Part shown: positions 31-43,499 of the stretch, piece by piece | Position numbering within the stretch: position 1 is the first letter of the stretch | Layout: each line of letters opens with the position of its first letter | Assembly (NCBI GenBank): GCA_010206265.1 | Contig: VIQV01000023.1 | Span: forward strand, 186,001-250,000 | Direction: 5' to 3' | DNA length: 64,000 nt | From: Lachnospiraceae bacterium MD329 | GTDB lineage: Bacteria > Bacillota > Clostridia > UBA1381 | Position numbers and translations under genes: made by a program | The notes under the pieces: model-generated | The model's database searches: none | What the model was told of the DNA's origin: nothing | What the model saw: the letters and a program-made list of their open reading frames with translations, nothing else

Positions 31-3000
31 TTATATTTCCGGTTTCATATTTTCAAGACTATCCCATACAAAAACTTCTACTCTAAACACATTGTCATTA
101 AAATTTTCTTCAGGTTTAATATTCTGACTTCCCTTTTTAAGCTTTGTATTTTCCCTTACTGATAAACTTTCCAGAATCCCCTCAGAATTGTATGCCGCAA
201 ATACTACTGCTGCATTACAGTCCTCTGTAACCGTGATTTGAGCTTGTCTGTCAGTTTTATTATATTCTGCTGATGGATTTATCGTCTGCGGCACAAATTT
301 TACAGCGTACAAATCAGGCAGCCACATCGTACTGTTATAGAACGTAACCTCTCCGTTATACTCTTTATTAACAGTAATTTCAGCCTCGTGCATAATCAGC
401 TTATTTGCTGCAAAAGCATACTGCTTAATCGGTGAAACCGTTACATTGTTATCTGTATCATTTACAAATGTAATTTCAATATCATTCTTGTTTCCGCCTA
501 TATAGTAAAACGTGTACTTTCCCTCATGCAGTTTTATACTTGTTATTGCAGGCTTTACGTTATAATCGGCTCCGTTATCTTTTATTCCGATATAGTTTAC
601 CATAGAATTCGTATATGTTCCCGATATTTTACCGCTGTCCTCGCCATCCGCAAACTGAGCACGAACTGTACTGCTTACGCCGTCGGCAAAGGTAAATACA
701 TCATCATTTGAGTTCGATCTCGCCTTTTTCGCGCCTGTACTGTATTTTGTAATATCAAAATATCCCGTACCTTCAGGGTGATTATCAGACGTACCTGCAT
801 AAGTATATTCATTTATCGTCTTGTCGGGCGCTTTAGTAGGAGGCGGTGTTTGATTACCGTCCTCAAATTCCTCGTCCATATTATATAAATGCAGTTCATA
901 TATTGACCAATACTTAGCCGCCGAAGTCCCTGTCTGACATATCTTGATATAACGTGCCTTCTGACGTACAAAGGTAATTTCATTATCTCCGTGTACTCCC
1001 TGTCCCGACGCAATTTTATCACCATAATTTTTATCATCAACAGAGGTATAAATCTCATATTGTCTTGGGTAGTCGTCAAGAGAACGCATAATTATTTTAT
1101 TAAACTCACATACTTCACCTAAATCCAGTATATACCACTCATTTCCTGTCTGATATGATGAATTCCAGCGTGTTGCGCTATCTCTGTCAAACGCACTTGA
1201 CGCGGCACTGCTGTTGTGAGACGCTTTTGCAGTCCAGTTTTTATTTGAAATTTGATATTTGTAATCAAACACAAAGCTGTCTATGTCAACAAGTTCCGAG
1301 CTTTCCTGATTATTTGTGCGAAAACGGAATACAACATTATTTGTGCCGCTTATAACAGTATTAAGCTCACAAGTAACCGTGCGCCACTCACCGTTTGTAT
1401 TTGGTATTTGAATTTCCTGCACTGTTTCTCCGCTTACAAGCCCAAGCGCAAGCTCAATGTATGACTCCTTATTACTCCTAACCGTAAGTGTAATTGACTT
1501 AGCTCCGTCCTCAAAACCTACACCGTCATATTTCACATAATCCTGATCGTCACATTCAGTGATGAATTTTGCTCCGTTTTCCTCTTTAATACTTATACCG
1601 CCGAAACCTGAATATTTTTCAGCCTCAATAGTCCTGAAAGCACTCATTTCCGCTGTAACCGGCGGAACATCAATATCGTCGGGCTTTTCCGGATCTGACG
1701 GCGGTTCCTTCCCTGCTTCTCCTGACGTTATGATGTTTATACCCTCACTTGTAACTGCCGAATTATATTCAACGGCAAGCTCTTTTGTATAACCTTCACC
1801 AACACGCTCAAACGGATATGATAAACCATTAATTGTTACAGTAACATTCTCTCCAAAGTTATCCTCTAAATAAAGAGTTCCGACATACGTTTCATTCTCC
1901 GGCTTAAATACAATATTTTTATTCTGATATGCCCTGCTGCCCTCAATCGCAGTTTCAATACAGCTTATAGTTCCCCAGCCTTCAGGCGAAATATATGCGG
2001 CATCCGTCATTTTATGTTCCATTTCCGGTAAAAGCTTTGGTGTAAGCCACAGTTCATTACTTGCCGCATTACGGTGATAACCTATTATTTCATAGTAATT
2101 TCTCCATATCGCAGGAATTGATATATACTGCTTATCACCGCTTATACTATTGGACGCATAATTTGCTGTAGTTACGGCAGGCAAAATATCCAGCGGGTGG
2201 TTAAATACATAATTTCTGTTTTTAAACTGCCTGTTATATGAGTCCTTCTGCATAGCCTCATACTGGTTCTGTCTTTGAGTCTGAAGCAGCAGTCCGCCGT
2301 AATGAGTAAGAATATACGGAGTCCATTCGTCATATGTACCGCTTGGATAGCCGAGTGTTTTATACAAAGGGTGATAATAGCTGTCCAGACTGTTTATAAC
2401 GTAGTCTGTTTCCTCCTGTGTCCATATTTGTCCGAGTTTCAGGTGAATAGCAAGCCACTGCCCTGCAAAATAAGACTCAGAGATACGTCCCGTCGGAAAA
2501 TTATCTGTTAAATACTTCGCTCTGTATGATTCCCTTACAGTATCAAACGCCGTCTGATACTGTTCTTTAAGCTCAACTTCACCAAACTTATCACACAATA
2601 TTGTCATTATTTTATATGCAACTGCAGATACGCTCGTATTAAACGCATTAGGGTCACCGCCTGCGTCATAAGAATTTTCAGAATTTTTAAATGTATACGG
2701 ATACTGCAGATCACCGTAAGCCTCTACCTGATCAAAAATCCTCTGACCCGCTTTTTTCAAATATCCCCAAAACCATTGCAGTTTTTCCTCGTCACCTGTC
2801 TGCTTATACAGCTCATATACAGATATAATTAAACCGCAGTTGAGGTCAACCCACTTATCAACATTACGATAATCCTCGTGCTCTGTATCATCCCACGGAA
2901 CAAGCTTATATTTAACGCTTGTATCCGTCATATAATTGAAATCGTGATGTATCTGACCGTCATTACGCTGAGTACGCGCCCAGTATTCAAGCTCCTGCCA

Positions 3001-4068
3001 AGCAAACTCAGGAATAAGATACCCAATAATCTGGCGAGCGTGCCACATTTGGTCCATTGTTCCAAAACAAGTCCACTCCCCCTCTGCAAAAGCAGTTCTT
3101 CCATCTGTCTTATAAATGGAATTATTACTTATATTTGCCAGAGAATTAAGGCATTGATTTATATACCATTGAGGAATATCCGATGAACGCATAAAATTTA
3201 CAAGTTTATCCGCATTTGTTTTAAGAGTATCAAAATTGCTAAGTCCTAATTCAGCTATATCAGCACTATTATTATATTTGCTTAAATAATATGCGCCATC
3301 AGGGTCAGAATTATCGTACCACGACACAACAAATTTTACCTTTTTACTTTCATTTGCCGCCAGATTCACTTTGACTGCAGTTCTGTTTTGCGTTCCGGAA
3401 ACAGTATTTAAACATTCTCCATTTGTAAAAAAGCCGTTATCACTGCCGACAGTAATCGTACCGTCACCGCTATCTGCAAATACAGACCATTTTGATGAAG
3501 TAAAACCCTTATTTTCCACATACTGTGCACTGCCTGAGGAAGTATCCCATAGAAGCGCCGCTGCTGCCTGTGTTTCTACAGTATTTGTATTGGTTAGCGT
3601 CATTTCATAGAAAGCATATGGCATACTCATATTGTCATAATTAACACTATCAAGCGGTGAAAATGCTTTTAACATTACTTCTATACCATTAATCGTCCCA
3701 AAATTCACCATATGTTCCGGCCATACCGCGTCATCATCATATCTGCCGTCTGTTTTAACTGCTGTCATTTTTTCAACAGTTTCCTTCTTTCCTCCTGCTT
3801 CCGTATATAATTGAAAACACGATTTACCCACTGATTTATAGTCATTCTGGTCAGCAGGCGCCATTGTAATAGCCGCAAAGCTTCCGTTCTGCGCGTTAAA
3901 TTTAATCGCACCTGCACCAAAACCGCCAAGAGGCGTACCTGTGGTTCCGTCCACCTGCTCATAGCGCGTACCGTTAACAGCCATATCAGCTATAGCATTA
4001 GGTACTGCCGCCGACAGCATTGCAACAGACATTACCGCACTTACACATTTTTTTGATATCGAAGTCAT
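31..4068 (-). CDS. Secreted GH116-like glycoside hydrolase with CBM6-like and F5/8C-like domains
   Basis: Predicted exported glycosidase of 1345 residues. I start it at the ATG at 4068 because GGAAAGGAAG precedes it and a signal peptide ending near AIA follows; the ATG at 4086 lacks a ribosome site. The N-terminal part has a GTPLGGFGAGAI motif like the GIPLGGIGxGSI of GH116 (DUF608, bile-acid beta-glucosidase type), followed by an alpha/alpha-barrel-like region with an SYDAGGDPNAFNTS segment resembling the GH116 acid/base region. Downstream are a CBM6-like domain (about 810-940), an F5/8 type C (CBM32-like) domain (945-1070), a proline-rich linker, a beta-rich module ending LYAVKFVP, and a C-terminal module containing VFVWDSLENMKP that recurs in three other proteins here. 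No SLH domain is present, so it is probably released. Substrate unknown; a pectin side chain or attached glycan is plausible from context. The family call is moderate, since I recognise it from motifs only. Confidence 0.7.
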   Translation of the reverse strand: MTSISKKCVSAVMSVAMLSAAVPNAIADMAVNGTRYEQVDGTTGTPLGGFGAGAIKFNAQNGSFAAITMAPADQNDYKSVGKSCFQLYTEAGGKKETVEKMTAVKTDGRYDDDAVWPEHMVNFGTINGIEVMLKAFSPLDSVNYDNMSMPYAFYEMTLTNTNTVETQAAAALLWDTSSGSAQYVENKGFTSSKWSVFADSGDGTITVGSDNGFFTNGECLNTVSGTQNRTAVKVNLAANESKKVKFVVSWYDNSDPDGAYYLSKYNNSADIAELGLSNFDTLKTNADKLVNFMRSSDIPQWYINQCLNSLANISNNSIYKTDGRTAFAEGEWTCFGTMDQMWHARQIIGYLIPEFAWQELEYWARTQRNDGQIHHDFNYMTDTSVKYKLVPWDDTEHEDYRNVDKWVDLNCGLIISVYELYKQTGDEEKLQWFWGYLKKAGQRIFDQVEAYGDLQYPYTFKNSENSYDAGGDPNAFNTSVSAVAYKIMTILCDKFGEVELKEQYQTAFDTVRESYRAKYLTDNFPTGRISESYFAGQWLAIHLKLGQIWTQEETDYVINSLDSYYHPLYKTLGYPSGTYDEWTPYILTHYGGLLLQTQRQNQYEAMQKDSYNRQFKNRNYVFNHPLDILPAVTTANYASNSISGDKQYISIPAIWRNYYEIIGYHRNAASNELWLTPKLLPEMEHKMTDAAYISPEGWGTISCIETAIEGSRAYQNKNIVFKPENETYVGTLYLEDNFGENVTVTINGLSYPFERVGEGYTKELAVEYNSAVTSEGINIITSGEAGKEPPSDPEKPDDIDVPPVTAEMSAFRTIEAEKYSGFGGISIKEENGAKFITECDDQDYVKYDGVGFEDGAKSITLTVRSNKESYIELALGLVSGETVQEIQIPNTNGEWRTVTCELNTVISGTNNVVFRFRTNNQESSELVDIDSFVFDYKYQISNKNWTAKASHNSSAASSAFDRDSATRWNSSYQTGNEWYILDLGEVCEFNKIIMRSLDDYPRQYEIYTSVDDKNYGDKIASGQGVHGDNEITFVRQKARYIKICQTGTSAAKYWSIYELHLYNMDEEFEDGNQTPPPTKAPDKTINEYTYAGTSDNHPEGTGYFDITKYSTGAKKARSNSNDDVFTFADGVSSTVRAQFADGEDSGKISGTYTNSMVNYIGIKDNGADYNVKPAITSIKLHEGKYTFYYIGGNKNDIEITFVNDTDNNVTVSPIKQYAFAANKLIMHEAEITVNKEYNGEVTFYNSTMWLPDLYAVKFVPQTINPSAEYNKTDRQAQITVTEDCNAAVVFAAYNSEGILESLSVRENTKLKKGSQNIKPEENFNDNVFRVEVFVWDSLENMKPEI

Positions 4069-4161
4069 TATAATCTTCCTTTCCATAATTATTATCTAAG
4101 TATATTTTACAGCTTTATCTGAGAAAATAACAGTTGTTTCTAATTTAAAACCAGTCAAAAA

Positions 4162-4198
4162 TCACACAAAAAACTGCTGTATTTTTATACAGCAGTTT
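4162..4198 (-). terminator. Terminator after the AraC regulator gene
   Basis: A 12-bp perfect stem (4171-4182 with 4187-4198, loop TTTT) follows the stop codon of the AraC gene by a few bases. On the minus strand it continues into a T-rich tail. It separates the regulator from the GH116-like gene, which should therefore have its own promoter in 4069-4160. Confidence 0.85.
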
Positions 4199-4203
4199 TA
4201 AAG

Positions 4204-4998
4204 TTATTTTGAATATTTATCAATATTATTACGAAATTCCCTTGGCGTCATTCCGTATATACTGCGGAATACACGGTTAAATGTACTTTGACTGTTAAAT
4301 CCGGCATTTTCCGATATAACCGTCAGGCTATCCTCTGTGGCACGTATAAGCTTTGCGGCATATTCTGCACGCAGTACATTTATATACTGCCGAAAATCAA
4401 TCTTTATCTTCTCCGAAAAAATTCTTGACACATAGCTCTTACTGATTGACAGTGCTTCAGCAACGCTTTGAAGTGATATGGGCTGTGTAAAATTTTCATC
4501 AATATAACTTACAATTTTGTAGCTCATATCTTCTATTGGGAAAGGATTTTTATGAGTTAACGTAAGATTTTCAATTATTTGTGAAAGTATAATCACAATC
4601 CACGCCAGACGCACGTCATTACTTTGACTTTTATCAATTGCTCCAAAAGCATATTTCGCGTCACTTGGCATATCTTTGGCAGAAATAACAGGATGTTGAG
4701 GCACAAATTCAGAGAGGTCAGGAAAAAAGCTTTTATACATCTTACTTGAACATATTATAAGTATTGCGTCTACTTTATCTGTTTTTTCTTTTATATAGCT
4801 GTGACGTATATTCGGAAAAACAACTGCCGTTTCCCCTTCACCGACAATATATTCATTGCCCTCAACTGTAATACTCTGACTGCCTGAACGCATATAAAGT
4901 ATCTCAATATCGGAGTGTATATGATCCCCAAAGCTCACTGTTTCAAGATTATTTTTAACGGAAAAACTTTTTCTCCGCACCTCATAAAATGTAAGCAT
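4204..4998 (-). CDS. AraC-family regulator with cupin sensor domain
   Basis: Probable sugar-responsive transcription factor of 264 residues. The N-terminal half is a cupin-type AraC sensor (around residues 10-90, with a DHIHSDIEIL motif). The C-terminal 100 residues carry the two helix-turn-helix motifs of the AraC/XylS family (SLQSVAEALSISKSYVSRIF and ISENAGFNSQSTFNRVF) and the closing IYGMTPREFR signature. I choose the ATG at 4998, which has GGGAGG seven bases upstream, over the ATG at 5013, which has no ribosome site. It sits between the pectin methylesterase and the GH116-like gene, each separated by a hairpin terminator. A role in controlling the pectin locus is an inference from position. 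Confidence 0.88.
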   Translation of the reverse strand: MLTFYEVRRKSFSVKNNLETVSFGDHIHSDIEILYMRSGSQSITVEGNEYIVGEGETAVVFPNIRHSYIKEKTDKVDAILIICSSKMYKSFFPDLSEFVPQHPVISAKDMPSDAKYAFGAIDKSQSNDVRLAWIVIILSQIIENLTLTHKNPFPIEDMSYKIVSYIDENFTQPISLQSVAEALSISKSYVSRIFSEKIKIDFRQYINVLRAEYAAKLIRATEDSLTVISENAGFNSQSTFNRVFRSIYGMTPREFRNNIDKYSK

Positions 4999-5021
4999 AA
5001 CTCCGCCTCCCATTATTTTTA

Positions 5022-5053
5022 TAAAAACAACGTCCCGAAGGACGTTGTTTTAT
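5022..5053 (-). terminator. Terminator after the pectin methylesterase
   Basis: A 12-bp stem (5024-5035 with 5040-5051) closes the methylesterase transcript. On the minus strand the loop is a stable cUUCGg tetraloop, followed by a T-run. The stem is symmetrical enough to act in both directions. The AraC gene begins only about 25 bases further on, so its promoter must overlap this element or it relies on read-through. Confidence 0.85.
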
Positions 5054-5065
5054 TTAAAATTCAAA

Positions 5066-8000
5066 TCATTCTGCCTTTATTAGTACAAATGCCATAAACT
5101 TCGTTCCGTCGCCTCCGCCGCCTGTTGCCGCTTTACTTCTGTCAAAACTTACAGTATATGTACCTGCATCTAAAGTAACATCTGTAGATGATACCGTATA
5201 ATTAGTTGAGCCTTCTGTTGCTACTTTAGGCATATTTTGCAGACAAACTGCTTTTACCGTTGTTCCGGCACCATTATCAAATGTAGCAGCATATCCTCTG
5301 TTAGAATACTCCCTAAACAGCATATACAGCTTATATATACCTGTTTCAGGAATTGTAACTGTTGTATTGGCAGGATTATCTATATACTTTGTATACTGAT
5401 TTAAATCCCCAAGCGGTGAACCCATATCAGCGTATGTCTTTGCCTGAGAATCTGAAATAGTCCACGCACCGCGCTCTGCCAAACCACTTGTTGTAAAGCT
5501 GTCAACCGTCATTATAGGAAGGTTTGTAACCTCAACAGTTGCTTCCGCATCGCCGTAGCCGCTTGCGCTTACAACGACCTTCAAGGTTGATTTCTCAGTC
5601 ATATCAACAGGAATAGCATATGTCGACTCGTTTGCTCCGATTATCTCAGTAAATTCATCAGAACCTTTCGGCGCCGAAAGCCATTTATATGTAAGAGCTG
5701 AAGTATCAACTCCATCTTTCGGTGATACTGCTGCTGTAACAGTTTTACCAGGCACAACCTGCACAACTGCTTTTCCTGCATCTGTAATTGAAACATTTCC
5801 AAGTGAATCAGAAGAATCTACTACCTGAATCGTCATTGTTCCTGTTACATTTGAACCGTCTTTTGATGTTGCTTTTATTGTCCATTCAGAACCACCTGTC
5901 GCATCTTCTGCAACTGTAACCGTTCCTCCGTTTACTGTTACACCTGCCGCGCCGGCTGTTACTGCCGTTGCACTCCAATCCACATTCTTATTGTCTGCAT
6001 TTGAAGGAGCAATTGCTGCATTAACAGTTAGCGTATTGTTCGGGTGTATTACAACCTTTTCATTATTATACTCCCAAACTCCTTCTTCTTCAACAGGTGT
6101 CAATGTAATACCGCTTACAAGCAGAGATACTCTTATATCCTGAAATCTTACAGGCGGATTAAATGTTCCTGTTGCGTCTATTGAATCCTGATTAGATTCT
6201 CCCTTATTCATTCCTGCAGGCAATGTTACGCTTGAATTTGATGTACTTAGCAGTGCTTTAGTCCAGTTATCTCCTGTTCCGTCTGTATCAAGTGCAGTCA
6301 TATTGTGACCTGTTGCAATAAACTTCTCACCAGCGGTAATGTCACTTACATTTACTTCTATCGGTTTTATAGTATTCTTACCAAACGAAACGTACAATTT
6401 AGTAATATTTTCAGCCGCAAACTTCTCCAACGCTCCTGCACCGATTGTCAGCGGAACCTGATATGAATATGTCTTTACTGCTGAAATATTATTTGCCGTA
6501 TCTTCAGCAGGTGTTACACTATTTCCCGATGTAACATTATAAGTATTGCCGTCTTTATCTCCTAAAGCAACTGTATATCCGCTGCCTGCCTTTACTGTTG
6601 CCGTATACGAAAGAGCATTTTCACCATCGCCGTCCTGTACTCCTGTAACCGTTGCGGTTACAGCCTCACCTGATGATGGAGTAAGTGTAAGAACAAGGTC
6701 TTCCGCTTTCATTTTATATAAATCTTTTTTGTTATTCTTGTTATTATATATACCTGTAAGAGTAACTGTACCTCTTACTGTTACGTCCTTATCAGGCTGT
6801 ACAGTAGGTATAGGGGTAGGCTGCTGAGAATCTTCTGTTTTTGCAACTGCCATTGCCACAAAATCTGATAATGCACCGTCTGAATACCATTTAACTGTAT
6901 ATGTACCCGGTGTTGTAACCTTAACCGCTGCCGTATAGATATTCAAGTCCTGACCGTTTGTGCCTACCTTATCGCTTGCTGTATTGCTTACAACATCGTC
7001 AAACAATGTTTCAGTTCCGCTTGATACTGAAATTTTATTGTCATTTCTCTTATACGAAGCCATTACATATACCTTATAGTCGCCTGCTTCGGAAAAATTA
7101 ACAGCCTTTTCAACGTGTCCGTTTGATGTGCCTCCAAGATAGCCGTATTTATCAGTGCCGGCATTTTCAAAGTTAGCTCCAAAAATCGCCTTATATTCAT
7201 CTGTATAAGCTGCTGTAGGGTCTGTAGGAGTATTATTTGTCATAAATACAGGTGTTCCGTTTGCATTCCCTACGGCTGTAATATCCTTAGCAGGAATAAC
7301 AACTGTTGTAAATTCTACAGGCTCTTCTGTAGGCTCAGTTGTAGGTTCTGTTGTAGGTTCTGTTGTAGTCTGTACTACTTCCGGATATGTTACTTTTATA
7401 GTTCTTGTATATCCTCCGCCAACATTGAGCATTTTAACCTTACCACCAGTTATATCCTCAGCCTTAACAGTATAACCTGCTTCTTTATTAAACTGATTTG
7501 CACCGATTTCAAGCTTTGTATCAGCGCCCATGGCATCAATTTCAATAACAGTACCTGCAACTGCCTGCAGAGTAAATTCTGTACATTGATTGATTTGCGC
7601 CCAGTCAGTCCAGTTTGCATTTGCAACCTTACCTTGACCTGTTGTTCCGTTATGTAATGTCTTTGGCGTTGTGTCAATATCCATCTTGACATCAATAGGG
7701 GTTCCGTCTACAATTGCCTGACCTACCCAGAATGCGTCCGATTTATTTTCCCAGCCAACTGTCGGAGCGCCGTTCTTTGTCTGGAAATCAAATATAACAG
7801 ATGTATTTGAAACTATCTTTGTATTAGCTGTAAATACAGGTGTTAATGTCATATTATCATTAAGTATTATTTCCTGACCCTCTGTATAAGTTTTTGTTCC
7901 GTCAGTCCATCCTGTAAGAGTATTTCCGTCTTTATAGACACCTCTGTTTGCAGGAATTGTAATTGTCTTTCCTTTTCTGACTTTCATTTCACTGGGTACT

Positions 8001-12688: not shown

Positions 12689-12837
12689 ATTTTTCTCCTC
12701 CTTAAATTCTCTGCGCACACGTTTTGTATATTTTCCATAAAACGCTCTATTACACTTAATTATATTTTATACCTTTTAGACACTTCTTACCTTGAATTTT
12801 TTGCTTAAAAACACCAAATTATTGCACCCCATAAAAA

Positions 12838-31903: not shown

Positions 31904-31935
31904 TTTTCTTCTCCTTTTAAATTAACTTGATTTTA

Positions 31936-32832: not shown

Positions 32833-32845
32833 TCTGTTCCCTCCT

Positions 32846-33859: not shown

Positions 33860-33984
33860 AAAGCTACCTCCCCTTTGTTAATTCTATATATATTCTACAA
33901 CAGTTCGCTTTAAAAATAAAGCTTTTTGTACAAAGTGAGCAAAAATTCAAGACTTTTTTCCTGTTTTACTATTTTTTTGTCCTA

Positions 33985-36900
33985 TTAATTTACTGTTTCC
34001 AATCTTTTGGCAAAAACCTCAATTCCGTATACATCAACTCCTGCATTTGCACTTATCTTAATAGTCCCTGCACTTCCATTATATTTATGCACGGCTGCGC
34101 TGCCCTCTACTTCTGCCCAGCCGATTGAATTAAACGGCAGTATGTGATCATTGCCGTCATTCAGCACAAGACTTCTGACTTCCTCTTTATTTGCTGATAC
34201 TGCATAAACTCTGATTTCACATTCACCTGATACAGGAAATTCTACTGACGTTGCAGGTTTTGATAATCTTACCTTTCCCATAAAGTTAATACCTGCAACC
34301 TTCTTTGCCTTAGTCAGTGTTTCAGCAGAGGCTCCGCTTATTGTCATTCCTTCATACCCCTCGACATTTTCAAACGTATACATTTTCTTTTCAGAAACTA
34401 TTTTATACTCATCCTGTCTTGGAATTACAGAAATATCATCAATATAATATTTACCTTCTGCACGCGATAAAGGCTCAAAGTAAACAGCTTTTGTAACAGG
34501 CGTTTTCTTCTCTGTATTTATTTGTGTTCTGAAATGACTGTCCTTTGGTATTGCAATATCAGAAACCACACCATCAACAGTAAGCTTACAGCTTAAATCC
34601 ATTGTATCTGCGTCAACTCCTACACGCATTACAATATTATAGAAAGTATCCTTTTCCCAGTTTCCGATTTCATTACCATTAGCATCTTTTATTTTATTAT
34701 CATTGTCAAATGTAATCTTATACGCTGTATTTGCATCGCCAGTCTGCAAATATACGTTCATTGCAGGCTCTTCACCTGTCAGCAGAATATTCGCAGACAT
34801 TTCCGGAACATATTCATCATTCATTAAATATTCACGGAACACATATCTATCTCCCGTATATTCATCACCCGGCGCAAGCAGCAGCTTGCCTCCTGCGTTT
34901 TCACCAATTTCATCATTCGCCCACAAAGGCTTTAATACGTTCATTTCCTGAGACTGCCAGCACCAGTCAAGACCGTATTCAAAATTCCACCTGTAAACAT
35001 TATTTCCCTGTTCGTCCAAACTGCTGTTATCAATTCCAATCCAGCCTGTATCAGGAGGATTGCCCTCACCTCCTACAGACGCAAAGCCAAGATAATATTC
35101 TTCACCCAGCAAGCTTACATCAATTGAGTTTAAAAGCTTTTTGGTCTGATAAACAGTAGCTCCGTTTTCCGTCTGATAAATATTAAGCATATTGCCGCTC
35201 TTTTCGGCTATAAAGTAAAGATTTTGCCCCGACAAGCCTTCAGCAGTATCAATACTCATATCTTCGCCCTTTACAGTACGTGATTTTAAGCTATACGATA
35301 CAGCTCCTTCAGCCTGTTCACCTCCGAAGAAATAGCTTTCGCTGTCAGCATCAAGAGATTTCCTCATCATTATTCCAAACTGTTTACCCGCTTGCATTCT
35401 GCTGCGATAATAAATTCTGCTGTCACCGCTGAATTTCTGATACAAATATCCGCATTTATCAGACGTTCCTCCTATATTGCCGTCAAGACCTGCAATTTTA
35501 TATGTATAATCATCTGTTACTGATACATACGTCTTTATATCCTCTTTTGAGGCGCCTATATCACAAAGCTGCCACGGCTTAGCATCAGCGCTTACAAATA
35601 CATTCACCGTATCCGAGGCAGACCTATAATTACTATCAAAGCACATAACTGTTATTTCGCCCTGCTGAGCATTTATAAAGGATAACGGAATATCAATCGT
35701 TTCACCGTTCTCATTTACATTAAGACCTGTTACTTCAGATATTATTTCCCCGTTAAACAACACTGTGGCGTCAGTCACGGTACTTCCTGCCTGTGCCTGA
35801 ATAGTTACTCTTATATTTTCATTAAATCCGATACGCGAATTTTCTTCTATATTATCTATAGTAATTACCGGAGTTGTTTTCTCCGTTACAACCTTCCACG
35901 GAACAAATGCAGTATAAGGTTTCTCCTCCGGATTTATTATATATGTACCTGCAGTCGGGTCAGTACCTTTATAGTCATAACCGTTTTCAGAGAGCTTATC
36001 CCATTGAGCAAGATTTTTTGCCGCATATAAATCTGCGTGACCGTTATTTACAGAAATTTTAATGTATCTGTATCCTTTATCATCTTTTTCCGACAATTCG
36101 GCATTACTTTTTTTACCGTATCTGATTACACGCTTAAAACTGTCGTTATACCCTGCCGCAATTACAAAATCGTCTGTATATATTCCTGTATAGCAATTTT
36201 TAGCAAGATTAGGTATATCTTCAAGCGTCCCTACAATTTCAAAATCTCCCGAAACCGCCTGAGATACTTGCTCTGGATAATTTGACACCTCTACCGCAGC
36301 AGGTACAATTCTGACACTGTTATCAGCATATGTAAGCTTTGCCGACAGAATATTCATTCCATCTTCCGTTTCAGCGTCAATTGAAGAAAAAAGTCCTGCT
36401 CCTTCTATCGGTTTCATTCCTTCCATACTATCCCAGACAAACACTCGCTTTTGGTTGCTGGACACCTCAGGCATTTCAAAATCTTCTTTATAAACACTTT
36501 GCTTTACTTCCTGCAATACGCCGTTCCGGTAGCCTGCCGCAATTATCGTATTTCCATTCTCCACTCCTGAAAGCGCCTGTTCACTTGCCTCTCCAAGATA
36601 CATATTATCTCTGTAAAATTCCACTTTTACAGCTCCCGAAGTATTTACGGATAATTTACTTCCATTTTTAATTACCGCATTGCAGCTATCTGTATATGGA
36701 GAAATTAAATCTTCACCGTAAATTTCCAGCCAAGTATAGCTGTCAGGTCCCAAGTTAAGCGAATCATACGGATTAGTCTTATCCAGACCCATTTTATCCT
36801 CCCAGACATCAGGGATACCATCGCCATCTGTATCAAAATCTGTCGTGCGAGTTTCACTTTCCCATATAGGATAACCGCGCCAATCATATAAACTCTCCTG

Positions 36901-38211
36901 CCCCTTCGGAATACCGTCCACAGGGTCATCTACAAGATATACACTGCCGCCGCTTCCGTGTTCTGGGGCTGTACGATGTATAACGTTATCTATAATTCGC
37001 GCGTCTACTAAATCTTGTTTCGGTAAAGTTGCTCCGACATCTGATATTACGTCTGAATAAGCCTCCTGAGCGGATACTACTGTTTTGTTGTACAGATATG
37101 AAGTATTTCTAAGCTCATCAAGCTTATTATAGCTTATACCTTTCATACCAAGATATACTCCCGCACCTCTGTCTATCTGCCAGTTCTCGGAATTTACAGC
37201 AGCAGCCTCCTCACTGTCATCATCAACATAGTTACCGTTTGCATAAATATCGCCAGACCATTTCTGCTGATATTTATTTCCTGGAGAAAGCTCAAAAATC
37301 CTTGCGCGCTTATTAGCAGGTGTAGCAGGTCCATACTTATAATAATTATTAACCAAATTAACATTGGCTCCGTTCTCCGCGCCATATCCTGCTTTATCTC
37401 CCCAGTTATAAATTATATTGTTCCACATATCTACAACTGTATCACTATCTGTATAACCGGGTGTCATAGAAACAGTTTCACTTGTACCGATTTTAGGATT
37501 ACGGCTTTTATGCGACGCAATAATATTATGGTGCATTGAAACATTCACTCCGCCCCATATACCTGCATAGCTATGCTCGCCTTTACCGTGAATAGAGTTG
37601 TTAAGGGCCTCCGAAACTATACAACGCTGAACCGTTATATTTTCACCGCCGATAATTGATAAATTCTCATCAGTTCCCCAGCTAATACTGCAATGGTCAA
37701 GAATAATATCTTTTGCACCTATAGGAATACTGAAACCATCCTGTGTTATTGTATCACTTCCGTCTGCAAGCTTTGCTCCGGGACGAAAACGCAGATACCG
37801 CATAATTATATTTTGTCCGTTTATTTTAACGCTGTTTCCGCGAAAACATATACCGTCCCCAGGCGCGGTATGTCCCATAATTGTAATATTATTATGCTCA
37901 ATTGATACACGTGACTCTAAATCAATCATTCCTGAAACATCAAACACAACAATTCTGTTTCCTTTTGATACTGCATCACGAAATGACCCTTCTCCGCTGT
38001 CGTTAAGATTTGTAACGTGATAAACCTCTATATCATTACCGCTTTGCAGAGCCCTCCTTGCACCAAGAGCAGACATTCCTCCGCCCGCAGCACCTGGAAA
38101 TGCCATCCCGATTGTTAAAGAGTTTCGCACATTTTCAACATCTGCAAACGCCGTATGAACTGATATTGCCGTCAATGCCGCAAGCACAACTGCCGTAATC
38201 CTCTTTTTCAT
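33985..38211 (-). CDS. Secreted multi-domain PL1 pectate lyase
   Basis: Extracellular pectate lyase, 1408 residues. The ATG at 38211 is preferred because GAGGTG lies seven bases upstream; the TTG at 38217 would leave only two bases. A signal peptide ends near AFA (residue 23). The PL1 beta-helix starts with FPGAAGGG and has LDHCSISWGTDE (about 171) and SHKSRNPK (about 234), followed by a DTDGDGIPD calcium-type segment (about 457). A module with VFVWDSMEGMKP (about 525-600) comes next, then an Ig-like domain, LamG/DUF1349-like regions and a C-terminal beta-rich module (1290-1408) resembling the N-terminal module of the lyase at 24650. There is no SLH domain. It starts 15 bases after uxaC and is probably co-transcribed with it. 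Its catalytic part is closely related to that of the lyase at 40749. Confidence 0.93.
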   Translation of the reverse strand: MKKRITAVVLAALTAISVHTAFADVENVRNSLTIGMAFPGAAGGGMSALGARRALQSGNDIEVYHVTNLNDSGEGSFRDAVSKGNRIVVFDVSGMIDLESRVSIEHNNITIMGHTAPGDGICFRGNSVKINGQNIIMRYLRFRPGAKLADGSDTITQDGFSIPIGAKDIILDHCSISWGTDENLSIIGGENITVQRCIVSEALNNSIHGKGEHSYAGIWGGVNVSMHHNIIASHKSRNPKIGTSETVSMTPGYTDSDTVVDMWNNIIYNWGDKAGYGAENGANVNLVNNYYKYGPATPANKRARIFELSPGNKYQQKWSGDIYANGNYVDDDSEEAAAVNSENWQIDRGAGVYLGMKGISYNKLDELRNTSYLYNKTVVSAQEAYSDVISDVGATLPKQDLVDARIIDNVIHRTAPEHGSGGSVYLVDDPVDGIPKGQESLYDWRGYPIWESETRTTDFDTDGDGIPDVWEDKMGLDKTNPYDSLNLGPDSYTWLEIYGEDLISPYTDSCNAVIKNGSKLSVNTSGAVKVEFYRDNMYLGEASEQALSGVENGNTIIAAGYRNGVLQEVKQSVYKEDFEMPEVSSNQKRVFVWDSMEGMKPIEGAGLFSSIDAETEDGMNILSAKLTYADNSVRIVPAAVEVSNYPEQVSQAVSGDFEIVGTLEDIPNLAKNCYTGIYTDDFVIAAGYNDSFKRVIRYGKKSNAELSEKDDKGYRYIKISVNNGHADLYAAKNLAQWDKLSENGYDYKGTDPTAGTYIINPEEKPYTAFVPWKVVTEKTTPVITIDNIEENSRIGFNENIRVTIQAQAGSTVTDATVLFNGEIISEVTGLNVNENGETIDIPLSFINAQQGEITVMCFDSNYRSASDTVNVFVSADAKPWQLCDIGASKEDIKTYVSVTDDYTYKIAGLDGNIGGTSDKCGYLYQKFSGDSRIYYRSRMQAGKQFGIMMRKSLDADSESYFFGGEQAEGAVSYSLKSRTVKGEDMSIDTAEGLSGQNLYFIAEKSGNMLNIYQTENGATVYQTKKLLNSIDVSLLGEEYYLGFASVGGEGNPPDTGWIGIDNSSLDEQGNNVYRWNFEYGLDWCWQSQEMNVLKPLWANDEIGENAGGKLLLAPGDEYTGDRYVFREYLMNDEYVPEMSANILLTGEEPAMNVYLQTGDANTAYKITFDNDNKIKDANGNEIGNWEKDTFYNIVMRVGVDADTMDLSCKLTVDGVVSDIAIPKDSHFRTQINTEKKTPVTKAVYFEPLSRAEGKYYIDDISVIPRQDEYKIVSEKKMYTFENVEGYEGMTISGASAETLTKAKKVAGINFMGKVRLSKPATSVEFPVSGECEIRVYAVSANKEEVRSLVLNDGNDHILPFNSIGWAEVEGSAAVHKYNGSAGTIKISANAGVDVYGIEVFAKRLETVN

Positions 38212-38226
38212 TACCAATCACCTCAT

Positions 38227-39633
38227 TTAAAACTTAAAATAAGATACTGCGTTATTATAACAAATATCTTCAACTATTTTACCAAGCGTCTTTATATCAG
38301 AAGGAAATTCTCCGTTTTCTACCCACGTTCCCAGCAGATTACATAATATACGTCTGAAATACTCGTGTCTTGTATATGAAAGGAAACTCCTCGAATCCGT
38401 CAGCATACCGACAAATTTACACAACGCGCCTAAATTTGCAAGCGCTTTCATCTGTTCTGTCATACCATCACGCTGGTCATTAAACCACCAACCGGAGCCA
38501 AACTGTATTTTCCCTTCCGTACTGCTATCCTGAAAGTTTCCGAGCATAGTTCCCAAAACACAGTTATCTTTCGGATTTAACGTATACAAGATAGTTTTCG
38601 GCAGGTTATCCTCTGCAGCAAGAGCATTGAGAAGTTTTGACAGCGGATATGCTATACAATAGTCACTGATAGAATCAAAGCCGGTATCCGCGCCAAGCTT
38701 TTTAAACATTCTTGTATTATTGTTTCTCAGTGCTCCGATATGAAGCTGCATAGCCCAGTCAAGCTCATTGTATTTTTTACCAAGCTGTATAAGTGTATAT
38801 GACTTATACGAGTCAATATCCTCTTGTGTAAGCTTTTTGCCTGACATTGCATTTTTAAATATTTTACTCACAGCCTCTGCGTTCGTTTCTTCAAACGGAA
38901 CACTGTCAAGAGCATGGTCGCTAACACGGCAGCCTGCTGAATGGAAATACGAAATTCTGCTGTATATTGCGTCAATCAAATCAGAATATGTATTAATTGT
39001 AACTCCTGCCGCCTCAGACAATCTTGCAATGTACGGCACAAAGGTGTCCTTGTCTATATTTATCATAAAATCAGGACGGAACGCAGGAAGCACTTTTGCT
39101 TTTATATGCCCCTTTTCAGCAATCCCCTTATGTACCAGCAAGTCATCGGCAGGGTCGTCAGTAGTGCATATATAAGTTACATTTGACTGATTTATAAGCG
39201 TTGACGGACTCATTTTAGTTTCAGAAATTATATGGTTTGCCTTATCCCATATTTCGTCAGCCGTTTCAGCTGTTATAACTGTATCTATACCGAAATACCG
39301 TTTAAGTTCCAAGTGCGTCCAATGATACAGAGGATTACCGACTGCATATTGCAGGCACTCGCAAAATGCTTCAAACTTTTCTTTATCGGATTTACTGCCC
39401 GTTATATACTCCTCGTCAACTCCGCACGAACGCATATATCTCCATTTATAATGGTCGCCGCCAAGGAAAATCTGAGTAATGTTTAAAAATGGTTTATCCT
39501 CGTACATCATCTGCGGACTCAAATGGCAGTGATAATCACATATGGGCATTTTTGCCGCATAGTCATTATATAATTTTTTTGCTGTCTCATTTGTAAGCAT
39601 AAAGTCGTTATCCATAAATTTTTTAGTTTTCAT
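38227..39633 (-). CDS. uxaC: Uronate isomerase (UxaC)
   Basis: Isomerises D-galacturonate to D-tagaturonate (and glucuronate to fructuronate), the first step of uronate catabolism. The 468-residue length is normal for the family. The metal-binding DYHCHLSP near residue 35 and the later GSGWWFNDQ and GMLTDSRSFLSYTRHEYFRR segments mark this amidohydrolase-superfamily enzyme. Together with UxaB and UxaA it supplies all three steps to 2-keto-3-deoxygluconate. It has AAAGGAG before the ATG and a promoter at 39673-39702, facing away from the AraC gene. Confidence 0.97.
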   Translation of the reverse strand: MKTKKFMDNDFMLTNETAKKLYNDYAAKMPICDYHCHLSPQMMYEDKPFLNITQIFLGGDHYKWRYMRSCGVDEEYITGSKSDKEKFEAFCECLQYAVGNPLYHWTHLELKRYFGIDTVITAETADEIWDKANHIISETKMSPSTLINQSNVTYICTTDDPADDLLVHKGIAEKGHIKAKVLPAFRPDFMINIDKDTFVPYIARLSEAAGVTINTYSDLIDAIYSRISYFHSAGCRVSDHALDSVPFEETNAEAVSKIFKNAMSGKKLTQEDIDSYKSYTLIQLGKKYNELDWAMQLHIGALRNNNTRMFKKLGADTGFDSISDYCIAYPLSKLLNALAAEDNLPKTILYTLNPKDNCVLGTMLGNFQDSSTEGKIQFGSGWWFNDQRDGMTEQMKALANLGALCKFVGMLTDSRSFLSYTRHEYFRRILCNLLGTWVENGEFPSDIKTLGKIVEDICYNNAVSYFKF

Positions 39634-39672
39634 ATCTATTCTCCTTTTAGATAAATTTTTTAATTTACTATA

Positions 39673-39702
39673 ATTATACCATTAACAAAATGTATAGTCC
39701 AA
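39673..39702 (-). promoter_or_regulatory. Predicted uxaC promoter
   Basis: On the minus strand a TTGGAC -35 and a TATAAT -10 are separated by 18 bases, 40 bases upstream of uxaC. It would drive uxaC, the downstream lyase and possibly the ABC operon. It shares a 248-base intergenic region with the promoter of the divergent AraC gene, a natural place for an operator. Confidence 0.6.
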
Positions 39703-39796
39703 TGTTTTTTTGATGTCCATTAAAGATTATTTGTTATAGTCAGTTCAAAAAATATGTGGTAATTATTGCACAATGATATGTTTTTAACAAAAACTG

Positions 39797-39825
39797 TTGT
39801 TTTTTTGCTAAAATAGTGCTATAAT
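39797..39825 (+). promoter_or_regulatory. Predicted promoter of the AraC regulator
   Basis: A TTGTTT -35 and a TATAAT -10 with a 17-base spacer lie 56 bases before the AraC start. The spacing and -10 are ideal; the -35 matches only partly, as expected if transcription needs an activator. Confidence 0.55.
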
Positions 39826-39881
39826 TGTCTTGTGAGCAGTTTTATGCACACTATTTGTATTAGCGGAAGGAGTGCTAACTT

Positions 39882-40718
39882 ATGTCTTTGCCCGAAGGAA
39901 AAAATTTATGGGTCGAGTCACTTTCAGAAACTGACGCTGCAGGTATGAGCCAGTCGCATTTTCACGATTATTATGAAATATACTACTTACTTGAAGGTAA
40001 ACGCCGTTACTTCATAAACCATACTCTTTATGATATAACCGCAAATGATATTATTCTGGTTAATAAAGGTGATATTCATCTCGCGCAAAGCTCAACCCCT
40101 GCCGGAAAGTATGCACGTTGTCTTATAACCTTTTCCGACCAATTTCTGAATAATCTGGGAAGTGAATTTGACAAAGATTTTTTAATAAAAATCTTTGATA
40201 TAAAAAAAATACATATACCCGAATCAATGCAGAATACTTTTAATATGCTTCTACATAAAGCGGAAACTAAAATCAAACAGGATAATATATATTCTCAGTA
40301 CATTGCCAAGCTTAACATTCTTGAACTGCTTGTGAATATAAACAAATTCTCTACAAAGAACAATACGCCTCTTATGGACGACCTTACCGTATATGAGGAC
40401 CGTATTCAGGAGGTATGCCGATACATATGCAACTACTACAACAAGCCCATTTCTTTAAATGAAATGGCAAAAATAGCATATATGTCGCCTACATATTTTT
40501 CGAAGAAATTCAAGCGTGTTACAGGTTTTGGCTTTAACGAATACTTAAATAACGTTAGAATAAAAATGGCTACCAGCCTATTAATGGAAACGCAAAGTTC
40601 AATTACCGAAATCGCAACTTTCTGCGGTTATCAGGACAGTAATTATTTTGGTGATGTATTCAAAAAAATAATCGGAATTTCCCCGAATAAATACAGAAAA
40701 GAACATTACATACTGTAA
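39882..40718 (+). CDS. AraC-family regulator, probable pectin/uronate sensor
   Basis: Transcription factor of 278 residues with an N-terminal cupin (HFHDYYEIYYLLEG, about 28-41) and a C-terminal AraC double helix-turn-helix (about 180-278; SLNEMAKIAYMSPTYFSKKF and ITEIATFCGYQDSNYFGDVF, ending in GISPNKYR). It is divergent from uxaC and converges on a PL1 lyase gene, so it is the best candidate for local control of the uronate genes; this is inferred from gene order. GGAAGGAG precedes the ATG. Confidence 0.93.
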   Translation: MSLPEGKNLWVESLSETDAAGMSQSHFHDYYEIYYLLEGKRRYFINHTLYDITANDIILVNKGDIHLAQSSTPAGKYARCLITFSDQFLNNLGSEFDKDFLIKIFDIKKIHIPESMQNTFNMLLHKAETKIKQDNIYSQYIAKLNILELLVNINKFSTKNNTPLMDDLTVYEDRIQEVCRYICNYYNKPISLNEMAKIAYMSPTYFSKKFKRVTGFGFNEYLNNVRIKMATSLLMETQSSITEIATFCGYQDSNYFGDVFKKIIGISPNKYRKEHYIL

Positions 40719-40721
40719 TAT

Positions 40722-40747
40722 AAAATCCACCCCGAAGGGTGGATTTT
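40722..40747. terminator. Bidirectional terminator between AraC and PL1 genes
   Basis: An 11-bp perfect stem (40722-40732 with 40737-40747) occupies the 30 bases between two convergent genes. A-runs and T-runs flank both sides, so each transcript sees a stem plus T-tail. On the minus strand the loop is cUUCGg, as in the terminator at 5022-5053. Confidence 0.88.
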
Positions 40748-40748
40748 T

Positions 40749-43499
40749 CTATATTACAGGTTTCATTGAGTTCAGTGAACACCACACATAAACTTTTACA
40801 TTATCGTTTGTATCGTCAAAATTTTCAGGCTTTGACACGTTATTCACGCCTGCTTTTAAACGCTGATTTTCTTTTACATTTATCTGCGACAATACTCCGT
40901 CCACATAACAAGCAAAAATCACTGCCACTGTCTGTTCCTCTTCCGATACTATAACTGCCTGATGATTCTGTACATCATACTCTGCTTTAGGTCTAAGCGG
41001 AGTTGGCGTCGGCATTATTGTCGGTGTTGGAATTGCTGTAGGTGTCGGGATAACTTCTGATATTCCTTCTGTTTTTATATTCGAAAATGACGCAATCGAA
41101 TACCAAGGCAGCATAGGATTTGCCTCATTTGAATTGCCTGCTGCACTATCTACTGCCAACCCGACATATGCCTGTTTACTCCAACCGCTTATATCAATTG
41201 TAAGCGGCTGTCGGATATTATTTGTCCAATATATACCATCATTGGACACAGACAATATAAGCTTATCGCCTTTTCTTTCAATTTTTATATATTCGGGCAA
41301 TGTCAGATTTTTCTCAGGGTTTGATGTATCATAACTTCCGTCGTTTTTGATTTCATTTCCTGCCAAATCACAAAGCCAGCTGCGTACAACATCTTCCCCT
41401 GTTTCACTGCGCTGTATAACCTGAATATTCTCTCCATACTTTTTCCAACCGTCGGCAAGCATTACCATTCTTGAATTACTATCCAGACTTTCCCTGAACA
41501 TAATTCCGCATACCACACCGTTTTCATACTTCGGCACATCTTCAATTTTAGCAGAGAATTCAAAATCTCCGTTTACTTCATTCTTCCAATAGCTGAAACT
41601 GTCAGACTTTCCACCTATAATACCGCTGCCTGCAATATATGTTTTCCCTTCATTTGTCCATACATCGTTTTTGCCTTCAAAAGGAGTTTTTCCGATTTCA
41701 ATTATATTATTCTTGTTTATAGCGCCGTCGTTTTTAGTAACATAAACTATTGATGTCGGAGAAGTTGTTGACTCTCCCTTATTGTTGTACGCTTTTGAAG
41801 TGATATAGTGCACTCCTGCTTTTAATGACAGATTTTTCTCTATTTTATTACCTGTAACAGTATCAATAAGAGTTTCACCGTCATACAGTTCTATTTGTGT
41901 TATGCTTGTTCCCTGTTTCGCTTTTGCCTCTGCTGAATAAACGACCTTTTCATTTTCTTCCGCAACTTCCCAGAAACCACTGTTATCTGTTTTATCGGTA
42001 GTTTTGGACGTATCCGCAATTGACGGAGCATTAACCGTAATATCAGGATTTGATGGAGCACTCTGACTTTCCGTCCAGTCGTTTACATAAGCCTCAATCC
42101 AGGTATACCCCTTCCACTTGCCTGTTGTCACAATATCCGTTTCCTTCTTGTTTCCCATTCCGTTCGCAGCTTTCCAATCCGAAGGTACGACAAACGTTCT
42201 TTTTTCCGAGGTTATTCCGCTGAAACCGCCAACCTCTTCTATACTGTTTATAATTCTTCCCGTACCGTTTTTTACATCGTTTATTACACGCGCATCAATG
42301 CTGTCACGGCGAGGGAGCGTCGCTCCCGCATTTTCAAGAACATTATTATATACCTCTTCAGCTGACTGATACGGAATTGCATATTCTCCCATATCAATAG
42401 GTGAAGCTGTAAAGTTTGCACGCTCCTGATTTTGTACATAACTTTCATTTGCCGTATTATCTTCCGTTGCCTCACTGTTTCCAAATACATAGTTACCGCT
42501 TACATAAAAATTAGACTTCGGCATTTGACCGTTATAGCTCGTATTTCCGTTATGCGTAACCTCAAATATTTTTGAACGTATGCTTTGCTTGGTTGAGGGA
42601 CCGTATTTATAATAATTATTTCGTATATTTACGTTTGACGCGTATTCAGGCGCTGAATACCTCGTCCATGAATTGTACGAATACGGTTCACCGCCGTAGC
42701 AGCTGTTATTACCCCAGTTGTAGATTACATTATTAGCCATATCTGTTGACTTCAGATTTCTGTCAAGTCGGGGATTGCGGCTGTCGTGATGAGCAAATAA
42801 ATTATGATGATATGTTGCGTTTGTACCGCCTATTATACCGCCATAGCCGTGCGCGCCTTTAAAATGACTCGACATTCTAAGACTTTCTGAGCTTATGCAA
42901 TTCTGAACCGACACATTTTCCGACTGTGCTTTCGGCGGTTTGTTTTCCGATTCTTTACCGTCTTCAAGAGAACCTGAATAAATCGTCAGCATTTCATCAA
43001 CTCCCCACGAAACAGAGCAATGGTCTATCATAATATTACTTAACCATCTGCCCCCTAATCCGTCAGGCTCACCATTTTGACGGTCTGTAGGACGCACACG
43101 AAGATATCGTATAATAACATTATCAGCATTATTTCCAAGCAAAACATCATAACCTGATACTGTTATGCCATCTCCAGGTGCAGTTTGTCCTAAAATCGTA
43201 AGATTACTCTTTTTTATGTCCAAACGACTTTCAAGTTCTATTATTCCGCTTACATCAAATACAATGATTCGTCCTTCTTTTGATACAGCATCACGCAGTG
43301 AGCCTGTTCCGCTGTCATTTAAATTGGTAACGTGGTAGACAGAGGGCTGCAAAGAATTTCTTGCACCTTTTGTATACTTTCCTCCGCCCTGCGCGTCAGG
43401 AAATGCCAAAATATTATCCTCAGCATTAACAGGTAAACAGATAAGTCCTGCCATCATTACTGCAGATAAAATATACGCGGTTATTTTTTTTAAATTCAT
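40749..43499 (-). CDS. Secreted PL1 pectate lyase with WDS-type C-terminal module
   Basis: Extracellular pectate lyase of 916 residues. After a signal peptide (about 1-26) the PL1 beta-helix begins at FPDAQGGG, with IDHCSVSWGVDE (about 158) and HHDSRNPR (about 237; likely catalytic Arg). An Ig-like domain (515-620), a DUF1349/LamG-like region (620-830), a Pro/Thr linker of PTPT units and a C-terminal module ending VYVWCSLNSMKPVI follow. The catalytic domain is close to that of the lyase at 33985, with the same YHVTNLNDSG and FDVSG core strings, so the two are likely duplicates flanking uxaC and the AraC gene. No SLH domain is present. GGGGAG precedes the start. Confidence 0.93.
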   Translation of the reverse strand: MNLKKITAYILSAVMMAGLICLPVNAEDNILAFPDAQGGGKYTKGARNSLQPSVYHVTNLNDSGTGSLRDAVSKEGRIIVFDVSGIIELESRLDIKKSNLTILGQTAPGDGITVSGYDVLLGNNADNVIIRYLRVRPTDRQNGEPDGLGGRWLSNIMIDHCSVSWGVDEMLTIYSGSLEDGKESENKPPKAQSENVSVQNCISSESLRMSSHFKGAHGYGGIIGGTNATYHHNLFAHHDSRNPRLDRNLKSTDMANNVIYNWGNNSCYGGEPYSYNSWTRYSAPEYASNVNIRNNYYKYGPSTKQSIRSKIFEVTHNGNTSYNGQMPKSNFYVSGNYVFGNSEATEDNTANESYVQNQERANFTASPIDMGEYAIPYQSAEEVYNNVLENAGATLPRRDSIDARVINDVKNGTGRIINSIEEVGGFSGITSEKRTFVVPSDWKAANGMGNKKETDIVTTGKWKGYTWIEAYVNDWTESQSAPSNPDITVNAPSIADTSKTTDKTDNSGFWEVAEENEKVVYSAEAKAKQGTSITQIELYDGETLIDTVTGNKIEKNLSLKAGVHYITSKAYNNKGESTTSPTSIVYVTKNDGAINKNNIIEIGKTPFEGKNDVWTNEGKTYIAGSGIIGGKSDSFSYWKNEVNGDFEFSAKIEDVPKYENGVVCGIMFRESLDSNSRMVMLADGWKKYGENIQVIQRSETGEDVVRSWLCDLAGNEIKNDGSYDTSNPEKNLTLPEYIKIERKGDKLILSVSNDGIYWTNNIRQPLTIDISGWSKQAYVGLAVDSAAGNSNEANPMLPWYSIASFSNIKTEGISEVIPTPTAIPTPTIMPTPTPLRPKAEYDVQNHQAVIVSEEEQTVAVIFACYVDGVLSQINVKENQRLKAGVNNVSKPENFDDTNDNVKVYVWCSLNSMKPVI

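Follow-up and report, generated by a model that had tools for sequence, protein, structure and literature searches.

A candidate Gram-positive polysaccharide utilization locus for pectin in Lachnospiraceae bacterium MD329, with a recurrent pair of SLH surface proteins

The DNA described here (the window) is a 64,000-nucleotide stretch of Lachnospiraceae bacterium MD329 (GenBank GCA_010206265.1, contig VIQV01000023.1, hereafter C12, positions 186001 to 250000; assembly 2.74 Mb, 86 contigs, 90.8% complete) that carries a gene cluster resembling a Gram-positive polysaccharide utilization locus (PUL) for pectin. Gene calls were based on a list of open reading frames (ORFs), followed by Pfam and NCBIfam scans of the cluster's proteins. 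Along the minus strand, starting at the right, the genes were P0006, UxaC, P0005, two permeases, a lipoprotein solute-binding protein (SBP), P0004, P0003, P0002, GH28, UxaB, UxaA, GH43, CE8, AraC-family regulator 1, and a GH116-like gene. An initial annotation of this DNA had named three PL1-type lyases, CE8, GH28, GH43, an importer, UxaC/B/A, and two AraC regulators, all of which were found in place (ORFs, Pfam, and NCBIfam). Coordinates below are those of the window, minus strand, unless another contig, record, or strand is given.

The uronate isomerase UxaC (38227-39633; PF02614, 698 bits) opens a run of 12 genes that extends to GH43 (39633 to 12889), with spacings of -8 to 141 bp, and looks like one operon. 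It continues with P0005 (33985-38217), importer permease 1 (32846-33859) and permease 2 (31936-32832; both by Pfam and NCBIfam), the importer's SBP (30320-31903; Pfam, lipobox by eye), P0004 (24650-30178), P0003 (21951-24635), P0002 (18592-21936), GH28 (17231-18589; Pfam), the tagaturonate reductase UxaB (15844-17238; NF002969, 571 bits, cut-off 359), a UxaA-type altronate dehydratase (14430-15842; Pfam), and GH43 with a GH43_C2 domain (12889-14433; Pfam). The initial annotation had described uxaC, uxaB, and uxaA as contiguous; all three are present, but uxaC lies 21 kb away from uxaB-uxaA (14430-17238). AraC-family regulator 2 (39882-40718, plus strand; Pfam) is divergent from uxaC and holds the same position in three relatives (G013, G020, and G027). 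Outside the run lie P0006 (40749-43499), as a separate unit, the CE8 pectin esterase gene (5066-12718; Pfam), and AraC-family regulator 1 (4204-5013; Pfam), which has relatives in records L025 and L026 at 42%.

The solved pectate lyase 9buj was matched by P0004 (residues 417-670, E 4e-24) and P0006 (residues 27-364, E 8e-44), and the secreted P0005 (1,410 aa) was assigned to PL1 through P0006 alone (548 aligned columns, 36% identity). None of the three was recognized as PL1 by Pfam hmmscan, and a search of the genome with PF00544 returned a single match, in P0006, at the cut-off. An R(A/N)P(R/K) stretch was present in all three lyases, and a DH motif scan matched P0004 alone. The 2,550-aa CE8 protein matched 9mm2 (E 8e-43), the nearest solved relative of GH28 was an exo-poly-alpha-D-galacturonosidase (3jur, E 2e-57), and those of GH43 were mostly beta-xylosidases and arabinofuranosidases. 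Signal peptides (by eye) were present in the lyases, CE8, P0002, and P0003, and absent in GH28, GH43, and the Uxa enzymes, which agrees with the intracellular location first proposed for GH28 and GH43. Pfam found three SLH repeats each in P0002 and P0004, at the C terminus, and a weak match in P0003 (24.8 bits), where N-terminal SLH-like repeats precede ~670 aa without a known domain. P0004 further carries a carbohydrate-binding module (CBM)-like module and an fn3 domain, P0002 a CBM-like module and aBig_2; no catalytic Pfam domain was matched in P0002 or P0003.

The CBM-like module, a stretch of ~146 aa, occurs in three copies in CE8 (12011-12571, 11519-11986, and 8519-8956) and in one copy each in P0002 (21352-21840), P0004 (29564-29956), and P0005, where it is C-terminal and most distant (33988-34380; missed by one module HMM). 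No Pfam match was found in any of these stretches. AlphaFold2, run on seven copies, gave a beta-sandwich, and Foldseek against 350,542 PDB chains returned three matches at E ≤ 0.001 (best E 9e-5): 5fu5 from Ruminococcus flavefaciens, which we take to be CBM77, and 8wc1 and 8x8h, both titled as the carbohydrate binding domain of a putative pectate lyase. The module appears, at moderate resemblance, to fold most like the CBMs of pectate lyases. Its model had 6 matches in the genome, all within the present locus and all already part of the query alignment. A different, short module ending in W-x-S-x-x-x-M-K-P (40752-41006, 34-291, and 11273-11503) was seen at the C terminus of P0006 and of the GH116-like protein, as well as within CE8 and P0005, and recurs in numerous secreted proteins of relatives, among them Monoglobus.

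No ABC ATPase was found among the scanned genes of the locus. One ATPase with a MalK-type OB domain (OB_MalK) is encoded elsewhere in the genome, where an MsmX ATPase had been expected, and fits a shared MsmX-like motor for the importer. KDPG aldolase (KdgA), likewise sought outside the locus, is encoded on contig C34; the candidate for KdgK is the kinase after it, whose best NCBIfam model, the kinase half of an aldolase-kinase fusion, scored 534 bits, below the model cut-off. PF07470 (GH105 class) had 4 matches in the genome, the best one adjoining the window. KduI and KduD, also named in the initial annotation as genes to look for, did not turn up: PF04962 (KduI) had 0 matches in the present genome and no short-chain dehydrogenase/reductase (SDR) of the genome exceeded the TIGR01832 cut-off, so KduI/KduD as the unsaturated-galacturonate branch is unsupported. 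PF04962 was matched in 24 of 61 genomes, with more than 200 bits in 5 (G021, G023, G024, G025, and G043), none in the genus; the group near 100 bits is probably IolB. The genome does hold a DhuI-like protein (212 aa, contig C33) with a full-length match to 4u8e (gbs1892; E 3e-91) and a DhuD-like protein (266 aa, contig C1), a full-length homologue of 4u8g (gbs1891; E 7e-137), the two solved proteins being presumably DhuI and DhuD of Streptococcus agalactiae. Three other solved dehydrogenases matched the DhuD-like protein equally well or slightly better, 9kd1 best. An SDR on C33 (L082:5094-5831) was rejected as DhuD, its best matches being hydroxysteroid and acyl-carrier reductases. KduI and DhuI are described as non-homologous enzymes for one shared step (PMC12838403). 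The DhuD homologue adjoins a PL11 rhamnogalacturonan lyase gene (C1, L086 6985-10920), and a second, more distant UxaC-like gene adjoins an SDR gene at C12 124223-126422 (L043), with SLH and weak GH88-family matches nearby.

Window genes were compared by tblastn with stretches from the genomes of relatives. In another genus of the same family (G020), 12 genes (AraC2, UxaC, PL1b, perm1, perm2, SBP, PL1_SLH, P0003, P0002, GH28, UxaB, and UxaA) were recovered at 56-93% identity on three contigs, in the blocks PL1b-UxaC-AraC2, perm1-perm2-SBP-PL1_SLH, and PL1_SLH-P0003-P0002-GH28-UxaB-UxaA; the order fits that of the window, and the joins between contigs are not visible. Parts of the cluster were in matching order in G027, G112, G078, G070, G114, G013, and record L024, some without UxaC and PL1b, and record L025 held AraC1, two PL1c, UxaC-UxaB-UxaA, AraC2, and permeases in a rearranged order. 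The cluster of G027 adjoins FtsZ and EPSP-synthase-family genes, so the chromosomal address differs between genomes. UxaC itself was present in 80 of 101 genomes. Among 18 uxaC regions of relatives examined, 3 (L044, L058, and L061) had lyase, regulator, or importer genes of the cluster; in the other 15, uxaC, uxaB, and uxaA were adjacent in 11 and uxaC stood alone in the examined stretch in 4. The nearest named records were uncultured Clostridia, an Oscillospiraceae bacterium, and Monoglobus.

P0004 ends 14 bp upstream of P0003, and this arrangement recurs. Relatives of P0003 were sought in 61 genomes, made up of the window's own genome and 60 relatives no more distant than the same order, and were found in 48 (E ≤ 1e-30); 117 places from these 48, by our count all that were listed, were taken in, the first 40 by rank, the next 20 partly picked after pairs had been noticed, and the remainder to complete the list. 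A place was scored as paired when a same-strand gene ending in an SLH trio lay ≤150 bp upstream, which gave 59 paired and 47 unpaired places; a further 8 lay at a contig edge, and in 3 the SLH gene was the next one downstream. Gaps within pairs were -86 to 66 bp (-4 to 36 in 50 of the 59, exactly -4 in twelve), and pairing persisted at a median identity of 22% over 21 genomes. A standalone form was defined by identity to the genome's own standalone P0003-type copy (contig C15, L100 5068-7692), which falls from 41% to 30% beyond the 38th row; the rows above this break, one in each of 38 genomes, were 33 unpaired, 5 at an edge, and 0 paired, whereas of the remaining 79 rows, 59 were paired and 14 unpaired, 3 had the SLH gene downstream, and 3 lay at an edge (Fisher p 1e-15, ignoring relatedness). 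Thus, 59 of 76 testable pair-type relatives stand directly behind an SLH-ending gene, 3 ahead of one, and 1 is fused. The fusion (G014, L191 2861-7096), counted as unpaired, joins an SLH trio (370-541) and a P0003-like part (561-1265) in one frame; in L144, also counted as unpaired, a single gene separates the SLH gene from the P0003 type. In a tree, the near-identical standalone set comprised 39 rows (support 98); it was chosen as the largest set without pairs, and its zero paired count is therefore by construction. This 39-row split, which differs from the 38-row set by one row (L144), was used for the counts of flanking importers and neighboring Pfam families.

Distances among paired P0003-type proteins correlated with those among their partners' SLH tails (r 0.53, 58 pairs), above all 5,000 within-genome shuffles (maximum 0.47), and without pairs >40% identical r was 0.38 against a highest shuffle of 0.31; nearest neighbors agreed in 11 of the 58 pairs, which speaks against tight one-to-one co-divergence (1 of the 59 pairs was dropped from both analyses). 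The co-divergence shows joint inheritance of the pair, not contact. Many SLH-tailed partners have in common an N-terminal domain of ~370 aa that no Pfam family matches (L141 3368-5056, L134 2033-3667, L138 5286-6908, and others). Importer genes of the present type lay in the flank of 17 of 73 pair-type loci (15 of the 17 paired) versus 0 of 39 standalone loci, at mean flanks of 8.8 and 7.4 kb, respectively, with the five closest P0003 relatives, including P0003, omitted. Among the best 25 of 62 and 75 families, Pfam matches in neighbors of the pair type (80 of 112 scanned) were led by permeases (9) and DUF3502 (7), with SLH, copper amine oxidase N, and SBP at 6 each, and included several glycoside hydrolases; those in neighbors of the standalone form (n = 38) were led by SLH (8) and FAD enzymes (7) and included L-rhamnose isomerase (3).

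The signature arginine of SLH repeats has a role in wall anchoring. All 58 partner tails (P0004 included, P0002 not) had it in each of their three repeats. After 9 of the 117 rows with long or fused N termini were dropped, paired-type P0003 proteins had arginine in repeat 1 in 61 of 69, mostly Y, L, or V in repeat 2, and arginine in repeat 3 in 15 of 69; the standalone form had it in 39, 0, and 38 of 39, respectively. The P0003 type, then, does not have three SLH repeats each with the signature arginine, a pattern that fits, without proving, reliance on the partner for anchoring. A single-sequence structure model of P0003 was uninformative (pLDDT 31). P0004-P0003 exemplifies a two-gene surface unit inherited within the bacterial order, as its recurrence and co-divergence show, and the pair is apparently undescribed: among the open-access titles and abstracts listed for a few search terms, none dealt with such an SLH gene pair.

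At the left end of the window, the GH116-like gene (31-4086; PF12215, 55 bits; PF04685, 27.2 bits) encodes a secreted protein with CBM6-like and F5/8 modules that match PDB 1w9s and glucanase modules; it forms its own unit, with terminator-like stems on both sides, and is linked to pectin only tentatively. Such stems at 1-24, 4170-4199, 40722-40747, and 43602-43636, which correspond to terminators reported in the initial annotation, set off this gene and P0006. Totals from the stem scan were 10 versus 8.8 expected at 28500-44000 and 16 versus 8.8 expected at 1-15000, so the value of the stems as evidence lies solely in their position and length. No RNA family at gathering score and no tRNA was found in the window. 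To the right, cdsA, uppS, frr, and pyrH (43650-46657; Pfam) form one half of an interrupted housekeeping run, adjoined by an M13 peptidase gene with an N-terminal SLH match (46715-49060). To the left of the window, moving away, lie genes for a GDSL-type protein, a membrane-like protein without a Pfam match, a LUD-domain protein, a GH105-class protein (PF07470; C12 182179-183246), a beta-lactamase-fold protein, a fucose-isomerase-like protein, and an FGGY kinase (XylB by NCBIfam); beyond these saccharide genes are Dxr, an M50 peptidase (rseP-like), and IspG (C12 173.9-177.3 kb). In G024 (L215), ispG-rseP-dxr-cdsA-uppS-frr-pyrH form one unbroken row of seven genes with a dxr-to-cdsA alignment gap of 57 bp; by comparison, ~52 kb separate dxr from cdsA in the present genome. 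A saccharide island of ~52 kb (C12 177.3-229.6 kb) thus stands between dxr (C12 177305) and cdsA (window 43650), and the 43-kb extent first given, although its genes are there, is short of the island and of the GH105 gene to the left. Recent foreign origin is unsupported by composition (G+C 0.393 in the cluster versus 0.382-0.396 alongside).

A Gram-positive PUL has been defined by a polysaccharide-degrading enzyme, a transport system, and a transcriptional regulator in one locus (PMC5320581), and the present locus contains all three. We consider it likely that it is such a PUL for pectin, mainly homogalacturonan, with the whole route proposed here and the surface pair; the conserved gene set probably allows the bacterium to cut pectin outside the cell, import the pieces, and burn them. 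Substrate, localization, induction, transport, and every function in the following scheme are predictions from sequence. CE8 would strip methyl esters from pectin, and the three PL1 lyases would cut the chain, P0004 held at the wall by its SLH repeats and the other two apparently secreted, while the CBM-like modules may keep the substrate in place. Import of oligomers would fall to the lipoprotein and two permeases, powered by the MsmX-like ATPase encoded elsewhere, and cytoplasmic GH28 and the flanking GH105 would release galacturonate and unsaturated galacturonate. Galacturonate would pass through UxaC, UxaB, and UxaA and the unsaturated sugar through DhuI and DhuD, both branches meeting at 2-keto-3-deoxygluconate (KDG), followed by KDG kinase and KDPG aldolase. 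AraC-family regulator 2 is the probable activator of the 12-gene run.

Several observations weigh against this reading. Of 70 family genomes, 9 (from 4 of 17 genera) carried the importer SBP (E ≤ 1e-60), and of 16 genus genomes 1 did, a patchy distribution. The module model is modest (mean pLDDT 73), and TM-scores to the query of 0.48-0.57 make its CBM resemblance moderate; the homologues of DhuI and DhuD are encoded on two different contigs, outside the locus. In an assembly 90.8% complete, the lack of KduI could be a gap, although 0 of 16 genus genomes had a PF04962 match >200 bits, which weighs against that idea. GH43, CE8, and GH116-like genes were not seen in the relatives' stretches, several contigs of which end there, except for a CE8-like module in G027; this is what a chance assembly of unrelated sugar genes would predict, but up to 12 genes in matching order across genera mean that the cluster is not one, and such synteny, which bears out the conservation implied in the initial annotation, leaves that explanation with a negligible probability and in practice rules it out. 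Pfam also found no SLH in P0005, P0006, or CE8, as expected if pectinolysis were a public good in which secreted lyases and esterase act at a distance from the cell and supply the community, the SLH lyase serving mainly for adhesion. We think this unlikely: a dedicated importer and the uronate pathway lie within the same run, one lyase has three SLH repeats, and the unanchored proteins may be retained by unrecognized modules. In favor of the selfish strategy initially proposed, a single conserved locus holds an SLH lyase, an importer, signal-less enzymes, and a uronate route; against it, two lyases and CE8 show no SLH. With one of three lyases (P0004) bearing SLH, this strategy is possible rather than established. 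Less probable still is that the locus serves chiefly for rhamnogalacturonan I or xylogalacturonan side chains, with homogalacturonan secondary; GH43 is related to xylosidases and arabinofuranosidases, a PL11 lyase adjoins the DhuD homologue elsewhere in the genome, and GH105 enzymes include rhamnogalacturonyl hydrolases (PMC12838403), but PL1, CE8, and GH28 predominate in the locus and no PL11 was found there.

For the P0004-P0003 type pairs, it is nearly as probable as its opposite that they are merely co-inherited neighbors, a wall gene duplicated along with the gene beside it, without joint function. Joint duplication alone predicts co-divergence, nearest neighbors rarely agree, and the structure model of P0003 failed; on the other hand, the pairs are kept at low identity across many genomes with mostly tight gaps, and one genome fuses both in one open frame. 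In Bacteroidota PULs, the SusC/SusD pair is a recurring two-gene surface signature of glycan loci; there the system has an outer-membrane pore, whereas here SLH proteins are found, with no SusC/SusD among the cluster's Pfam matches. We raise only tentatively the reading that, in this SLH-rich, mostly uncultured order of Clostridia, a dedicated wall-protein pair marks many glycan-use loci, is inherited as a unit with a joint surface role, and is a counterpart, in role, of SusC/SusD. Such a pair, if real in this form, would place a protein for catalysis or binding, with an SLH trio at its C terminus, ahead of a P0003-type protein whose own trio is partly degenerate and which has a large domain outside known families.

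Among known systems, the Gram-positive PULs of Roseburia and Eubacterium rectale likewise bring together enzymes, an ABC importer, and an AraC regulator; the Ros-2 pectin/xylan locus has GH28, two GH43, CE12, ABC, and AraC genes but, unlike the present locus, no PL1 or CE8 listed, and "SLH" has 0 occurrences in its text (PMC5320581). Paenibacillus sp. JDR-2 likewise combines an SLH-anchored multimodular endo-enzyme with CBMs, an oligosaccharide importer, and intracellular finishing, but this is established for xylan, beta-glucan, and starch, with pectin named as possible only, and no P0003-type partner appears in the text examined (PMC4765114). Secreted pectate lyases, cytoplasmic GH28 and GH105, and uronate isomerases are shared with Paenibacillus amylolyticus 27C64, in which the pectin genes have widely scattered locus numbers and, in the text examined, no SLH lyase is given (PMC6339884). 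Monoglobus pectinilyticus is a Gram-positive pectin degrader rich in PL1 and CE8 (PMC12163728). The gene-order comparison with Monoglobus proposed in the initial annotation yielded PL1 relatives (records L027-L031, 44-48% identity to the present lyases); no uxa, importer, or P0003 relatives were found in the flanks examined at the cut-offs used. The present genome has full-length homologues of both DhuI and DhuD of S. agalactiae, which in that species belong to a gene cluster in a glycosaminoglycan setting (PMC12838403), whereas here they are on two contigs and probably serve pectin. To our knowledge, a pectin block this complete with SLH display, the DhuI/DhuD homologues beside it, a module confined to one locus, and a recurrent SLH pair are each new.

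The locus indicates that in a Gram-positive lineage the genes for cutting pectin at the surface, importing it, and catabolizing galacturonate are gathered in a single conserved block, and that DhuI/DhuD homologues may stand in for KduI/KduD in the present genome. The P0003-type protein family and the putative pectin-binding module are named here and open to direct testing, and the recurring SLH pair could serve as a marker of glycan loci in genomes with many secreted proteins that lack a recognizable domain.

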